Shown piece after piece: positions 1-5,547 of a stretch of DNA of 5,547 bases. A program made the position numbers and the translations under genes. Source of the DNA: Candidatus Omnitrophota bacterium (GTDB lineage Bacteria > Omnitrophota > Koll11 > Zapsychrales > Fredricksoniimonadaceae). Numbering within the stretch: the first letter of the stretch is position 1; every line of letters starts with the position of its first letter. The notes under the pieces were generated by a model, which had not been told where the DNA came from, made no database searches, and worked only from the letters and a program-made list of their open reading frames with translations. The stretch spans positions 1-5,547 of the forward strand of contig JADFXE010000069.1 in the NCBI GenBank assembly GCA_015233705.1. The letters run 5' to 3'.

Positions 1-1302
1 TCTTTTAGCCGCAAAACTCCTAGATTTCCCAGCAAGAATCAATCCCCCCGATAATCCCTGGACGCTATGCGCGATTGGATGATTAAGGAAATCGCGCCTG
101 GAAATAAACGCGGGGACAGTTCCACCGTTAATCCAGACGTGTATTTCCTCAATATCCCGAATAACAACGAATAAATTGAACAAATACTCATTATATTCTT
201 GCGCCTTCTTCAGACGCGAAAGCCCGTCGACCTTCGGCTCTTTGGGCCAGGCCATTCGCGCGGCCCGCTCTTTCGGCGCGGTGCAGCGTGCGATCGGGAA
301 AGACTTCCGCGCCCGGCCGGAAGCCACCACACGCGACACATCCGACCGAGTGGCCTTGACCCGAACAGGATCGCTCGGGAGATACGGTTTGCGGTTATCA
401 ATGATCCTTTTCAGCTTTCCGGCCTTGTAAGCAGCTTCGAACTGAGCATAGGTCATGATCCTGCGTCCGGCCCAGTTGGCGTCCCTCGACGTCTTAAAGC
501 CCAACCGCACGGCCTCCGCCAATCCCTTGAGCAGGAATCTCACGTCTCTTGGATGAGGAACCAAATATATCGCGTGGTATTTGCGCGCAACAGAACCGTC
601 GCGCAGCCTCGGATAACGTAAAATGCAATCGGGAGCAAGGTTAAATATCACGTAATACGGACCGAACAAGCCGGCTGACGTGTACGGATCAAGGTCATCA
701 TTGAGCCAACCAACATCCGCTCTTTCCTGGATCGCTCTGCCGGCCCTGACAGGCTTAACCTTTCCGTCGATCATGATATTCAATAATGCCTGTGCACGAT
801 GCAAGGTCGGGACAATTTCAGGCATTGGAAAAATATTATGAAGACGATCGTTACCGCCCACGGTGCCATGGGCCACCAATTTTAATTTCTCTCCCATCTC
901 CAGAATATTCGACGGAATGGAACCTGTGTAGTATCCGCTGTCCAGTTTTGCCACAGCATCGTAGACTTCCATCGCCGTTTGATATTCGCTGTCCAGATAG
1001 GCCTGACCGTTTTTGATATCCGAGTCTAATTCTCTCTCATTTCCACCCAAACGACCGGTGTCGTATTTTTTGATTATGCTCATACAAAAAGAGAGCAGTT
1101 TTTCCCTGTCGCTCGGCGAAGCCTCGGCCAAAAGATGGGCCAGGCTCGCCATGAGACGGTATCTGTTGACCGTTTTTCTGGCCTTCCATTCTTTGTACTT
1201 TATCTTGAACGTATCAATGTCATAAAGCGCGGTCTTCCAGCGATGATTTAAGGGGGTCTTTTCTCTAATATCACGGAACCAGCCTTGCTTTTCCCATTTA
1301 CC
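1..1302 (-). other. C-terminal region of unknown function, running off the window (residues 1416-1849)
   Basis: I do not recognise this region with confidence. Residues 1430-1545 are mostly helical and charged. From about 1555 it becomes mixed alpha/beta: K-L-V-A-H-G-T-V-G-G at 1556-1565, T-L-H-R-A-Q-A-L-L-N-I-M-I-D-G at 1581-1595, G-P-Y-Y-V-I-F-N at 1629-1636 and K-Y-H-A-I-Y-L-V-P at 1656-1664. Residues 1720-1775 are rich in Arg/Lys/Pro and probably extended. The region then returns to helix and strand with E-E-I-H-V-W-I at 1800-1806 and T-V-P-A-F-I at 1810-1815. Some landmarks recall ADP-ribosyltransferase folds (a His-containing first strand, a helix with I-x-x-G, a late Glu before H-V), but this is weak. 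No stop codon is reached, so the domain or the whole chain continues beyond base 1. Confidence 0.4.
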
Positions 1303-4300
1303 CGGCGCGACGGAAAGCGCAAATAGAAGTCCGCTGGCAACGACCGCAAAGGGGACAAAGCCGATGTGAGCGGGCGGGGCGCAAGGCGCGTGGGCGAAGA
1401 AATTCGACGCGGCCAGACGGATCGCGTCCCAATGCTCGATGATCGCTGGCGCCAAAAGCAATCCCACAAAAGTAACCGCCGCAAGCGCGGCCAAAACGCC
1501 AAGGTGCGTGAACCCGTTGGCCGTAGCCGTCGGACGAGCGCTTGGTGTCTGTATATTTATTCTGTTTATATTCAAGTCCGGCATACCCAACGAACTCACC
1601 CATTGAAGCGCGCCGTAATCCGCATTAAAATAGAACGTAATCGCGGTGACACCTTCGGGCACAACGCCCTCAAACCTGAACGAATTGTTGCCCCAATCAT
1701 CGCAAATCTTTAAATCTATCGTCTTCCATTGTCCCCACTGACCCTTTCCCCATATCCGTCCGACGATCGCTTCTTTAAATTTTGGACGGCGATTAAACCG
1801 GGCCGTTATGTAAACCTTTTCGCCGGGAGACAATTTCAGGGTATTGCCGGATTGAACAAAAGGATAGATATCTCCAGCCCATTCGAGCCGCGGCCTGTCG
1901 TCGGGGTGGATCAATTTTCCGACTTCAATGGCCGGGCCATTATCCTGAAGAATTTTTCTGGCCTGTTCGCATGTCGTAGAATATTTGGAAGGCGCTGTTG
2001 TGTCCCCGGAAGCGAGAAGGTTCCCGAGCCTGGCATCCTCAGGCAACACAAGGTTTAAATATGTTAAGAGCGCTTTCAAATGATCGCTCTCCCTGCTCAT
2101 GCTGCACTGCTGGCTCGCCTTGGCGATCTGATCGAAGAACGCCTCAAAAACCTTCACGGACGTCTTCTGGCTTGTCAATATGTCCAGGGCGTAATTAAAG
2201 ATTCCGGCACAACAGAACTGCTGTAAATATGGCCTGTACTGAAGGTAGGGATCTACATCCCGAAAAGAATTACCCCTCTGAAAAAGTAACAGCGTGCCGG
2301 CCACATTGCCGGCATCATTCTTTCCATCATGAGGCAAATACGCCGCCTGCATTAAAGTTTTGAAGAAAACGCGCGCAGAAGCATCGGCCTCGTTTCTTGC
2401 GTTAATAACCTCGTAAAACGACTCCACCATCGCCTGGTTATTCCTGAATTCATTAATGATCGCGTCTCTGGCCTCTTTAAATTCGGTCCCCCAAGCGGTC
2501 ATGAGCAGCCAGAAGATCGTCTGTGAATGCTGCGTCAGCGTCTGATAGAACCAACCGTTAAAGGCATTATTCTTGGCCCCGCGTTTCAAGAGATCCCGAT
2601 ATGCAACGCCGATCAAAAAGAGCGCATAGTCGAGATCGTTATTATCCCGATTGCCCTGGCAAAGCTGCTCGAACATCTCTCTTGCCGTGTCTGGAACGCC
2701 GCTCCTCAGGGCCGCGAAGACCCTGTCCATCACGGCGGAAGATACGGGTTTGCGGCTCAAACTCGGATAATAAGTCATTCTGTTTCTTCCGAAAGTGTTG
2801 GTGCCAAAATAGCCCACAGGCAAACGGTCCATGATGTCCGCCGGCGATTCATGGTCCAAATCTCCCAGAACATCGCTGGCGAATTTTGTCAAACATGTTT
2901 CTTTAGGCAAGAATGCCCTCGGAATGCAGGTCATGACCAGGCCGTCGATCGTCACGGCCAAAGGAAGCGTTCGGGGCTCCCCATCGGAATCCACGGAATA
3001 ACCCATCATGTAGGGGTCTCCCCAATCGTATCTTTTTTCAGCGCCCAGTTTCTCGGCGCCAAGCTGCTTGACGATATGATTGACGATTGGATGGGTCCTG
3101 TATTCTTCGGGGTAGTCTATGCCGAATTCCCTGAGCACCGATTCTCTGTTCCAACCTTTTTCAATGGTGACGTTATATTCGATCCGGATCAACTCTTCGT
3201 CGCGCAATTGCCGCAGAAGAACCAGGACCGCCTTAAGCGAACGCTGGAATCTCGACTGGAACATCTGCTCATGAAAATGGTCCACGAAAACGACCCAGAC
3301 CAGCTTCCGGCGCGTCTCAACCGGAAATTGACTGAACAATGTCCGCGCCGCCTCTTTATCCTCGGGAACAAAATAAGCGCTCGTGACGATCCCAACCTCG
3401 TCGCAGCAGGTTGCGGCGTGATTGATAATATCTATAAAATCCTGGCTAAATCCCGGCTGGCTGACGTTGGTCTTACCGTATTCGGTCGTTTCGCCAGGGC
3501 CGACAAAATTGATCCTTTTAAATCCTTTGAACGCATCAAGTAAGGCGATAATATCTTTCCTGGCCATGTCCTTGCCGTTCTTGTCGGCAAAGCAATCCGT
3601 GCAGTTCCCCCGACAACGGGCACTGATCATGACATTCAGGACCTCACTGGGCCCCTCATATATCTCGCCTTGATAATATCCCGTAACTCCGGCAAAGAGT
3701 TTCGTCATCCGGAAGGCAAACGTGGCCGGCCCAATAGCGGAAAGCGCGCGCCCGAATGCGGGCGGATTTTGAGCGACAAGGGGATCTTCGTTTTCTCCGA
3801 TGATGGAAGAGAAAACTGCGCTCGCGACAAGCAGGACTGCTGTCAAAACCAGGCCGATGTGAGCCGGCGGGGCCTGGGAAGCGTACGTGATGAATTCGAC
3901 AGCCGGTTGTCGAATCTGCGCAAGGTAATGCACGACCGCGGGGCCAAAGATCAGCGCCGCCAGGCCGGCCAGCGCGATTGCGACAAAAACCCCGATATGC
4001 GCAAAGCCGTTGCCGCGGGGTCTTCTCATTGGCCTGGATGAAGAAGTGCCGGTCGGCACAACTGGCCCAGGCCCATTCTCAGCAGGCTGATCGTCATCCT
4101 CCGACGAATCAGCGAGCGAAAAATTCCCCCGCCGTTCTATGACAACACCGGCCAGACGTGTTTTCAATTTCTGAGCCAAACTCGCAAAGATCTGCGTTAC
4201 CCGCGACGAGCTGACACCCATTTCCTTGGCCACCTCGTGTTGCGCTGGCTCATCCTCATCAAAGAACAGCCTTTTAAGGATATGCACCTCATCCTTAAGC

Positions 4301-5547
4301 AACCCTTTGCCGTAACGCGACATGAAATCAGCAAATCTGTCGCCCGGCTCCTCCGCCGCAGCACCTGCACCTCTCATAAACGTCACGGTCGCCTCAGCCA
4401 GCGCCTGATCATGGTCCTCACCTTCAAAATCCGATATGCGCTTTTCCCGCGCGTGGGCCAGGACATTGTTAATGTCCGCAACGTCCAGGCCGCTGGCCTC
4501 GGCAAGCTCTTCGGTAGCGGGGATGACCCCTTCGCCAATGAATTGCTCCCGGGCCTTATTGATCCTGGACAGCTTGGCCTTTTCCGTGACCGTCATCGAG
4601 CGCTCCTGGCGCTGCTGATTCATCATGCCACGCTTCATCGCGACAATAAGTATCTTTATAAAATCCGGATGGTCTGCGGGAAAGTTCTGATAAGCGCCCG
4701 CCAGCCCCAGCATCGCACCGCTCAGATATTCATAAGGATCATCGGCATTCGCTCTTTGGGCGAACCTGGCCGCTGCGCGCTGAACAAGTGGCAGATAACG
4801 CTGCAGGACATCCTCAGGCAGCGCGGACACGGCCAGACGCTGCTTGGTCGCCACAGCCGCTCGGGCCTCGGCATCCTTCTTGCGTCTGCTCTCTTTTATC
4901 TCGTCCGACTTTATCTGCAGGGCTTCCTCAAACTCTGCCCGCAGACAAGGCTTGAACTCCAGCCTGAACCGCGGATCAGCCTTGACCCACCGCTGACTCA
5001 GGACATCGCGCACCAGGATCTCCGACGGAGTAACCGAAGGATCAGCCTCCCACGCTTTCTGATCATAAACCAGCAAGGTCCAGCCGTATTCCGCGTTCTG
5101 CTGCGGAATAAGTCGGACCGCTTTATTGACAAGCGAAGGGATATCGTTCCTTCCCCGATAACTGAGCGAACAAGTCCCTGTGCTCGCCAACGGCTGGAAG
5201 GCGATCCGCCGTGGAATGATCTCCTCTCCGCGGACATTCCTGTTACCCAGGGCATGGTCCAGAATACTCAGCCGGCTGAAATCAACGGTCGTGCATTTAT
5301 TCAATGCGCGGTAATAGTAGTAGCGGGACACCACCGTCCCTTCCCACGTGAGCTCAATATAGGTCCCGTAATCCCGCTCCTCCCGCAATCTGGCCTCAGC
5401 GTAAAATATCGTCGTGCCATCCCGGGCCTTGAGCTCCTTGAACCGGGCCTGCGCCTCGGGAAGCAGGCTGAAGGTCGTACTCTTTGTCTGACCCGCCAGT
5501 TTCACCTCACCCCGGAAATCCTCGGGTCTACCGCCGGAAAGTTTCTG
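1..5547 (-). CDS. Interior fragment of a giant multi-domain protein (sigma factor - membrane hairpin - radical SAM - helical - beta-sandwich - membrane hairpin - unknown), partial at both ends
   Basis: All 1,849 minus-strand triplets in this frame were translated and none is a stop. The gene enters at base 5547 and leaves at base 1 still open. The product reads as plausible protein throughout: alternating charged helices, hydrophobic membrane segments, glycine/aromatic-rich beta regions and recognisable motifs (sigma region 4 helix-turn-helix, radical SAM CxxxCxxC). There is no sign of a frameshift. Two membrane hairpins divide the chain into three modules, and both flank cytoplasmic-type domains. 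No start can be chosen, since internal ATG codons lie within continuous coding sequence and I see no strong ribosome binding site in front of any of them. The full length must exceed 1,849 residues by an unknown amount. Fusions of this size and mixture resemble giant proteins reported in Candidatus Omnitrophota; that assignment is inference. The reading frame itself is certain from the sequence, while the function of the whole is unknown. Confidence 0.95.
1306..1518 (-). repeat. Membrane hairpin module, copy B (residues 1344-1414)
   Basis: Second copy of the two-helix module. It opens N-G-F-T-H-L-G-V, with membrane helices at about 1349-1370 and 1395-1414, and carries the same A-P-P-A-H-I-G before the second helix. 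It is offset from copy A by exactly 831 residues (2,493 bases) with no gap over 59 positions. Conserved positions include Pro1367-Ala1368, Ile1376-Arg1377 and Phe1383. A lysine/arginine-rich stretch follows (K-W-E-K-Q-G-W-F-R-D-I-R-E-K, 1417-1430), so the C-terminal side is probably cytoplasmic. It separates the radical SAM, helical and beta-sandwich block from the unrecognised C-terminal region. Confidence 0.85.
1519..1551 (-). other. Short Pro/Ser/Thr/Ala linker before hairpin B (residues 1333-1343)
   Basis: The eleven residues Q-T-P-S-A-R-P-T-A-T-A join the beta-sandwich-like region to the second membrane hairpin. The equivalent place before hairpin A has a longer linker that contains a similar S-S-R-P. 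Low-complexity sequence therefore precedes both hairpins, which supports reading linker plus hairpin as one recurring unit. Confidence 0.6.
1552..1920 (-). other. Beta-sandwich-like region, possibly carbohydrate-binding (residues 1210-1332)
   Basis: After P-R-L-E-W the sequence becomes strand-rich: L-K-L-S-P-G-E-K-V-Y-I-T-A at 1237-1249, a Gly/Trp-rich hairpin with W-G-K-G-Q-W-G-Q-W at 1266-1274, D-D-W-G-N-N-S-F-R-F at 1283-1292, and V-T-A-I-T-F-Y-F-N-A at 1300-1309. Strands of this kind with an aromatic strip occur in Ig-like domains attached to starch- and glycan-active enzymes. No catalytic domain for glycans is visible next to it. The fold class is moderately supported and the ligand is a guess. 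It ends where the Pro/Ser/Thr linker to membrane hairpin B begins. Confidence 0.4.
1933..2760 (-). other. All-helical region of unknown function (residues 930-1205)
   Basis: About 275 residues are predicted by eye to be almost entirely alpha-helical, with repeated amphipathic segments of about 20-35 residues broken by short polar turns (for example around 966-971, 989-996 and 1073-1082). Aromatic and leucine-rich stretches such as T-I-F-W-L-L-M-T-A-W at 1010-1019 could form a core; this one is too short and too closely followed by charges to count as a membrane helix. Cysteines occur as C-C at 1112-1113. The pattern resembles a helical-repeat scaffold, but I could not align the units to one another. 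It follows the radical SAM domain and may bind its substrate or a partner; that is inference. Confidence 0.45.
2818..2964 (-). other. SPASM/Twitch-like auxiliary cluster segment (residues 862-910)
   Basis: Residues 865-874 read V-T-I-D-G-L-V-M-T-C, the usual entry to a SPASM or Twitch domain, in which a strand ending in D-G-x-V leads to a cluster cysteine. A second cysteine follows at 885, giving C-x10-C. The closing L-G-D-L at 894-897, then a short spacer and D-I-M-D-R-L at 904-909, matches the family's L-G-(N/D)-(I/L) followed by a helix. I do not see the later CxxC-type cysteines of a full SPASM domain, so a reduced Twitch-like form, possibly with an incomplete cluster site, is more likely. 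Confidence 0.6.
2818..3654 (-). other. Radical SAM enzyme domain (residues 632-910)
   Basis: Radical SAM enzymes bind a [4Fe-4S] cluster and split S-adenosylmethionine to start radical chemistry. The cluster motif is exact: C645-x3-C649-x2-C652 with the next residue Phe, following a hydrophobic strand (L-N-V-M-I-S-A-R). About thirty residues later comes the second strand and a GGE-type SAM-binding motif, I-N-F-V-G-P-G-E at 679-686. Further strands follow at 718-724 (E-V-G-I-V-T-S) and 750-756 (V-W-V-V-F-V-D), matching the order of the partial TIM barrel. The part after residue 860 looks like a SPASM/Twitch extension, entered separately. The substrate cannot be told. No precursor peptide or partner gene is visible, because the window holds only this gene. 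The domain sits between membrane hairpin A and a helical region, an unusual place for such an enzyme. Confidence 0.85.
3799..4011 (-). repeat. Membrane hairpin module, copy A (residues 513-583)
   Basis: Two hydrophobic helices (about residues 518-539 and 564-583) are separated by a 24-residue, mildly amphipathic loop. The module begins N-G-F-A-H-I-G-V, and the second helix is introduced by A-P-P-A-H-I-G. Residues 513-571 align without gaps to copy B at 1344-1402 with 26 identities in 59 positions by my count. A basic cluster lies before the first helix and an acidic G-E-N-E-D-P follows the second, so both ends most likely face the cytoplasm. It separates the sigma-like domain from the radical SAM domain. 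Function beyond membrane anchoring is unknown; it could also be a processing or spacer unit of a polyprotein. Confidence 0.85.
4012..4140 (-). other. Acidic then Pro/Ser/Thr-rich linker (residues 470-512)
   Basis: Directly after sigma region 4 the chain turns low-complexity: S-S-E-D-D-D-Q at residues 481-487, then a Gly/Pro/Thr/Ser stretch, then a basic cluster (Arg at 505, 508, 509 and 511) immediately before the first membrane helix. The basic cluster favours a cytoplasmic position under the positive-inside rule. The linker is probably disordered and would give the sigma-like domain freedom of movement, or expose the chain to proteolysis; both are inference. Confidence 0.65.
4147..4806 (-). 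other. Sigma-70-family domain resembling FliA/sigma-28 (regions 2, 3 and 4; residues 248-467)
   Basis: Sigma factors direct RNA polymerase to promoters. Residues 250-256 (RYLPLVQ) match the start of region 2 of FliA (RYVPLVR). Region 2.2 keeps a G-L-x-x-A core at residues 278-283 (GLAGAY). K-R-G-M-M at 305-309 sits where FliA has I-R-G-A-M. Region 3 is clear: I-P-A-T-E-E-L-A-E-A-S-G-L-D at 342-355 is the usual T-x-x-E-(I/L)-A-x-x-x-G-(L/I) helix-turn-helix. Region 4 is the best part: residues 404-465 include a second helix-turn-helix with E-V-A-K-E-M-G-V-S-S-S-R-V-T-Q-I-F at 438-454, aligning with FliA's G-E-S-R-V-S-Q-L and ending K-L-K-T-R-L. The 220-residue span is close to a normal FliA-type factor. 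The oddity is that region 2.3/2.4 has lost its usual aromatic promoter-melting residues. The alignment to FliA is from memory. Sigma ancestry is likely, but activity as a sigma factor is uncertain. Confidence 0.85.
4807..4947 (-). other. Charged helical linker before the sigma-like domain (residues 201-247)
   Basis: This stretch is dominated by Glu, Lys, Arg, Asp and Ala with few helix breakers, including a K-E-S-R-R-K-K-D-A-E-A-R run at residues 218-229. It looks like a single long helix or short coiled coil. It joins the unknown beta-rich region to sigma region 2. No motif of known function is visible. Confidence 0.5.
4948..5547 (-). other. Beta-rich region of unknown function (residues 1-200 of the fragment)
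   Basis: I do not recognise this part. Residues 1-165 alternate short hydrophobic and polar stretches typical of beta strands, with aromatic-rich patches: a run of four tyrosines after S-R near residues 75-79, and W-T-L-L-V-Y at 156-161. A short helix-like charged segment covers residues 31-57. Cysteines are at 85, 125 and 201, with no evident metal-binding spacing. Residues 166-200 become helical and lead into the linker before the sigma-like domain. The beginning of the domain lies outside the window, so its extent is unknown. It could be a sensor, binding or assembly domain ahead of the sigma factor, but nothing in the sequence decides this. Confidence 0.4.

Follow-up and report, generated by a model that had tools for sequence, protein, structure and literature searches.

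A long open reading frame from a Candidatus Omnitrophota bacterium combines a sigma-70-like domain with a duplicated transmembrane hairpin

We analyzed a 5,547-nucleotide stretch of DNA from a Candidatus Omnitrophota bacterium (assembly GCA_015233705.1, contig JADFXE010000069.1, positions 1 to 5,547), hereafter the window, which is occupied over its full length by one stop-free frame on the minus strand. The encoded protein contains a sigma-70-like domain and two homologous transmembrane hairpins. In the reading that we favor with moderate confidence, it is a long membrane-anchored chain composed of the sigma-like domain, the reused hairpins, a probable radical SAM domain and further parts, with all globular parts in the cytoplasm.

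The window (5,547 bases, without any N) is open on the minus strand over 1,849 codons (1..5547), with 0 stops and no start-to-stop boundary; the remaining five frames have 18, 69, 73, 93 and 97 stops. In 500 simulated sequences of the same length, generated with an order-1 Markov model of the window, the longest stop-free run in six frames had a mean of 193 codons and a maximum of 344. For codon usage, each third of the frame was held out in turn and scored with a model built from the other two. Every held-out third scored +0.18 to +0.22 bits per codon in the minus frame, against −0.05 to +0.04 for the in-register antisense frame and negative values in the four frames left. The open frame and its codon score together therefore identify a real coding sequence on the minus strand, which bears out the original prediction of a frame spanning the entire window, made there without naming the strand. 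The long plus-strand open reading frames (ORFs; one of 338 amino acids and one of 437 running off the window end) are shadows, as had also been predicted, because the coding score favors the minus frame in every third.

These results support the view that the window lies inside a single long bacterial gene. As it contains neither start nor stop, we give the size of the product as at least 1,849 amino acids. The proposal that the window is a slice of a giant gene thus stands as far as the interior of a long gene is concerned, but not for the giant size known from published cases, with only 1,849 codons in view. The expectation that standard gene calling would miss the frame was wrong, since the protein set we searched already holds the exact 1,849-residue protein, with a precomputed match to PF04539. 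It is listed there a single time, from a contig that measures 6,658 bases and so exceeds the window by 1,111 bases. The frame is nevertheless open at both window ends; our guess is that an assembly gap adjoins the window.

By hydropathy, the protein has four hydrophobic helices (residues 520-538, 564-582, 1352-1370 and 1395-1413), arranged as two transmembrane hairpins. Copy 1 comprises residues 513-585 (3793..4011, minus strand) and copy 2 residues 1344-1415 (1303..1518, minus strand), and they begin 831 residues apart. The copies are 37% identical at the protein level and align with a score of 130, compared to a mean of 34.2 (standard deviation 6.6, maximum 77) for 5,000 shuffles preserving the helix composition, none of which reached 130 (z 14.5). 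On this evidence the two hairpins are clearly homologous copies of one unit. In either copy, NGF and APPAH lie 46 residues apart, and the DNA of the two copies is 72% alike across 47 bases. The pattern [AT]H[ILVM]G occurs four times in the 1,849 residues, once per membrane helix and always at the helix start or immediately ahead of it; the form taken there, [AT]H[IL]G, is absent from the rest of the frame. Within each hairpin, the two helices have similar starts, NGF-[AT]H[IL]G and APP-AHIG, which would fit an origin of the hairpin itself from a doubled helix. Lysines and arginines in the 18 residues outside copy 1 number 4 before it and 1 after it; for copy 2 the numbers are 1 before and 5 after, and the loop-side flanks of the hairpins have 1 each.

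A side observation concerns the start of copy 2, NGFTHLG, with which the start of a pilin-like ORF, GFTLIEL, could be aligned (L025 901-1671, minus strand). Pilin signals carry a glutamate. As the hairpins are without it, the likeness is probably due to chance.

The sigma-70-like domain is located before the first hairpin, at residues 236-470 (4138..4842, minus strand), and profile and PDB searches find in it regions 2, 3 and 4 in order, with FliA/WhiG as the nearest family. TIGR02479 (FliA/WhiG) matches with an E-value of 2.3e-13 over model positions 2-223 of 224, the PDB search yields FliA (6pmi_F, E-value 1.3e-6, residues 12-231 of the segment), and the phage sigma family phrog_351 matches as well (E-value 3.5e-12). 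In Pfam, PF04539 (Sigma70_r3) exceeds its cut-off (35.4 against 25.3 bits), whereas sigma regions 4 (18.4 bits, cut-off 24.1) and 2 (15.8 bits, cut-off 24) are both below theirs. The regions are collinear with those of FliA across about 220 residues, and by this order the assignment of the domain to the sigma-70 superfamily is solid at the level of sequence comparison. Judged by score, however, it is not a member of the FliA/WhiG subfamily: FliA_WhiG reaches 50.4 bits, under the curated cut-off of 189.6, and the sigma70-ECF superfamily model 36 bits, under 42.9. We therefore refer to it as a sigma-like domain.

Aligned to three sigma factors from loci retrieved in the analysis, the domain keeps the region 4 helix-turn-helix and parts of region 3. 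Sigma factors have an aromatic residue in region 2.3 that helps promoter melting. HMMER places FIKIL opposite FTTYA of FliA in this region, and MAFFT opens a 7-column gap in the window's protein opposite EGYAKLR and STYATWW of the three sigma factors; both alignments are locally uncertain, and the aromatic residue is unmatched in both, which makes ordinary sigma activity doubtful. The window's domain further differs from FliA/WhiG-type factors, which have regions 2, 3 and 4 in the same order over a similar length, in that it sits within a long chain and has a membrane hairpin after it. Region 2.2 of the domain (YLSGAMLGLAGAYQNF) is close to LLSPAMVGLLGAIRNY of a sigma factor at locus L021, which belongs to the genome behind locus L019, titled Verrucomicrobia, a likeness that possibly hints at related phyla.

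Between the two hairpins lies a probable radical SAM domain (residues 636-800, 3148..3642, minus strand). It contains the hallmark of this superfamily, CX3CX2C followed by an aromatic residue, as CRGNCTDCF (residues 645-653, 3589..3615, minus strand). The CX3CX2C motif occurs once in the protein, and any CX3CX2C appeared in 5 of 5,000 residue shuffles. Searched as a cut-out, the segment has only two NCBIfam matches, both covering the motif: TIGR04321 (spiro-SPASM, E-value 0.0062, 15.3 bits against a cut-off of 250) and viperin (E-value 0.042, 13 bits against 180). Searched against PADLOC, the whole protein matches pVip alone (viperins, E-value 0.019, residues 636-688), and this match covers the motif as well. 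No radical SAM profile scores above its cut-off in NCBIfam or Pfam, the latter giving no match at all. A low-confidence structure model of the segment has alternating beta/alpha elements. The motif, the weak profile matches over it and the elements in this poor model are what the segment has in common with radical SAM enzymes such as spiro-SPASM proteins and viperin; its position between two membrane hairpins and the lack of a match above any curated cut-off set it apart from them, and we do not file it as a superfamily member. The earlier claim of at least two recognizable families is hence secure for sigma-70 and probable for radical SAM. By eye, residues 860-890 (2878..2970, minus strand) form a possible SPASM/twitch-like auxiliary stretch, in which TIDGLVMTC is followed by a second cysteine 11 residues on (Cys 874 and Cys 885) and which presumably resembles the region around the auxiliary cluster in radical SAM enzymes of the SPASM/twitch type.

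The other parts of the protein have no usable matches or very weak ones. Residues 1-235 (4843..5547, minus strand) had best E-values of 0.22 in PDB and 0.24 in PHROG and no match in Pfam or NCBIfam. Residues 940-1214 (1906..2730, minus strand) look helical by eye; their best PDB match has an E-value of 0.028, its two stretches failing individually, and residues 960-1215 match 0 families in Pfam, PHROG or NCBIfam. Residues 1215-1335 (1543..1905, minus strand) may form a beta-sandwich, their sole match being the jelly-roll family PF22907 (E-value 0.02, under the cut-off). The C-terminal residues 1420-1849 (1..1290, minus strand), for which the structure model is of very low confidence, had 0 matches in PDB at E ≤ 10, in PHROG and in NCBIfam, and a best Pfam E-value of 0.064.

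When the protein set was searched for relatives, the window's own protein was the sole entry among the matches listed for the complete frame (7,988 candidates scored) and the sole match of the hairpin region at E ≤ 10 (279 candidates); residues 610-1009 matched none of 3,418 candidates. Candidates in these searches were limited to 0.55-1.75 times the query length, so that much longer relatives cannot appear. Scanning genome contigs with the whole protein gave 5 pattern stretches, 0 of them confirmed. The hairpin pattern was found at 18 genome loci and 1 viral locus, all 19 of which we regard as chance, their translations looking unrelated and tblastn with the window's protein giving nothing below an E-value of 1.1. 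In scans of viral contigs, the confirmed stretches were 0 of 1 for the whole protein, 0 of 65 for the hairpin alignment, 0 of 6 for residues 610-1009, 0 of 0 for residues 1420-1849 and 1 of 7 for residues 236-470. We dropped this last one (L028), as its 831-residue ORF, which we take to be a Clp-type ATPase, shares only a short stretch with the sigma-like query. A tblastn search against phages and plasmids had no match, although it was insensitive, leaving ordinary sigma factors unmatched too.

Whole genomes were searched in phyla that are putatively Verrucomicrobia (G001), Nitrospira (G003), Proteobacteria (G004), Bacteroidetes (G002) and actinobacteria (G006). In the Sigma70_r3 search, all 19 genomes from the G001 phylum matched, as did 11 of 14 control genomes, so that this search is uninformative about origin. 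Look-ups without the sigma part numbered 1,719, with some genomes perhaps counted twice. Neither these look-ups nor the searches of the protein set, contigs, phages and plasmids included a positive control for parts other than the sigma-like domain, and an empty answer lacking such a control carries no weight. At E ≤ 0.01, residues 490-1849 matched 3 of 387 genomes of the G001 phylum; at E ≤ 0.001, the matches were 0 of 295 (G003 phylum), 0 of 299 (G004), 1 of 247 (G002) and 0 of 198 (G006). Residues 505-1421 matched 0 of 293 relatives of G001, a set that may overlap the 387. The four matches (loci L024-L027) were judged chance, their ORFs reading by eye as unrelated: a large protein of secreted type, a pilin-like one, a TIM-barrel-type hydrolase and a cytochrome-like one. 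With the whole protein at E ≤ 1, three of six genomes matched, G001 and G006 through sigma factors and G005 weakly (E-value 0.2), with stops inside the matching stretch. Altogether, these searches, which did not reach Omnitrophota, turned up no relative beyond ordinary sigma factors and matches judged chance.

In the architecture we propose, the product would be anchored in the membrane by the reused two-helix hairpin, in the order sigma-70-like domain, hairpin 1, probable radical SAM domain and further parts, hairpin 2 and the unmatched C-terminal part. All globular parts would be on the same side, because a hairpin returns the chain to the side it left. This side would be the cytoplasm, judging by the kinds of domain recognized and by the positive charges next to the hairpins; both indications favor it weakly. 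The hairpins may have spread by duplication and act as spacers, keeping a number of intracellular activities together on a single membrane-bound chain. Within this chain, the sigma-like domain most likely would not act as a free, ordinary promoter-melting sigma factor but would bind DNA or RNA polymerase as a membrane-held module, and this mode of action is the weakest step of our proposal. Pro-sigma-K of Bacillus is a membrane-bound latent transcription factor, and the window resembles it in having a sigma-like domain tied to a membrane segment. It differs in that the hairpin comes after the domain, more than 1,200 further residues follow and no protease was seen in our scans.

Several other explanations must be weighed against this one. 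The window could be an assembly chimera, in which pieces of two or three ordinary genes were joined in one frame by accident. The protein set has the chain from one contig only, no relative confirms the order of the parts, and the G+C fraction by window quarter is 0.516, 0.510, 0.541 and 0.568. Yet there is no stop at any joint, one frame runs throughout with a similar coding score in all thirds, and the identical kind of hairpin is found at both domain borders, which leaves an accidental junction very improbable. An origin from a phage or another virus with very long genes would be in keeping with the phrog_351 match of the sigma-like domain. Against it stand the absence of matches in 50,697 phage records, in a search too insensitive to find ordinary sigma factors, and the six viral-contig scans with only matches judged chance; we give a viral source hardly any weight.

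A surface or secreted giant protein, used as an adhesin or in cell-surface attack, would have its globular parts outside the cell, with the sigma- and radical SAM-like parts degenerate. This agrees with the altered look of sigma region 2.3, the weak jelly-roll match at residues 1215-1335 and, as far as excerpts of the published accounts go, the many membrane helices and proposed surface action of Omnitrophota giant ORFs (PMC10066038, PMC12057145). We nevertheless consider it unlikely, given that the matched families are of intracellular kinds, the charges weakly favor globular parts inside and the Pfam and NCBIfam scans gave no adhesin or sugar-cleaving family above cut-off. By analogy with polyproteins, cleavage in or close to the hairpins could also divide the product into pieces held at the membrane, one of which would free the sigma-like domain when needed, as with the membrane-bound pro-sigma-K of Bacillus. 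In such a gene, a reusable hairpin cassette marked by [AT]H[IL]G would stand between intracellular activities, a latent sigma factor and a radical SAM enzyme among them, and one translation would deliver a fixed membrane-held set, possibly cut later. The repeated hairpin, the fixed motif at each helix start and the position of the sigma-like domain directly before hairpin 1 fit this idea, but a repeated spacer requires no cleavage, Pfam and NCBIfam scans gave no protease match and we recognized no known cleavage motif. We regard the polyprotein as rather improbable. The simplest account is a single long chain strung along the membrane, made up of intracellular parts and a spacer that was duplicated.

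Giant bacterial ORFs with many membrane helices are already known. According to excerpts of the published reports, ORFs of more than 20 kb occur in several Omnitrophota classes and have membrane helices, few annotated domains and poor conservation (PMC10066038). The 39,678-residue ORF of Velamenicoccus archaeovorus has 42 predicted helices (PMC10066038), which, if paired, would amount to about one helix pair per 1,890 residues. For such giant genes, roles as surface weapons or as extracellular structures have been proposed (PMC12057145), and a size criterion of more than 5,000 amino acids has been used for huge proteins (PMC11573180). With the Omnitrophota giant ORFs as described there (PMC10066038), the window shares the uninterrupted frame, several membrane helices and few recognizable domains. 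It differs from them in having sigma-70-like and probable radical SAM domains, not discoidin, laminin G or dockerin (PMC10066038), in its helices forming a duplicated hairpin and in its 1,849 codons in view. In the literature searched, which comprised openly licensed papers, mostly by their titles and the beginnings of their abstracts, we found no description of an architecture combining sigma, radical SAM and hairpin.

Huge prokaryotic genes have been divided into two main groups, surface proteins and peptide or polyketide synthetases, in the excerpts available to us (PMC11573180). If our reading is true, a sigma-like and a probable radical SAM domain arranged around duplicated hairpins would represent a third plan of such genes, and the hairpin motif would offer a concrete handle for finding further proteins of this kind.
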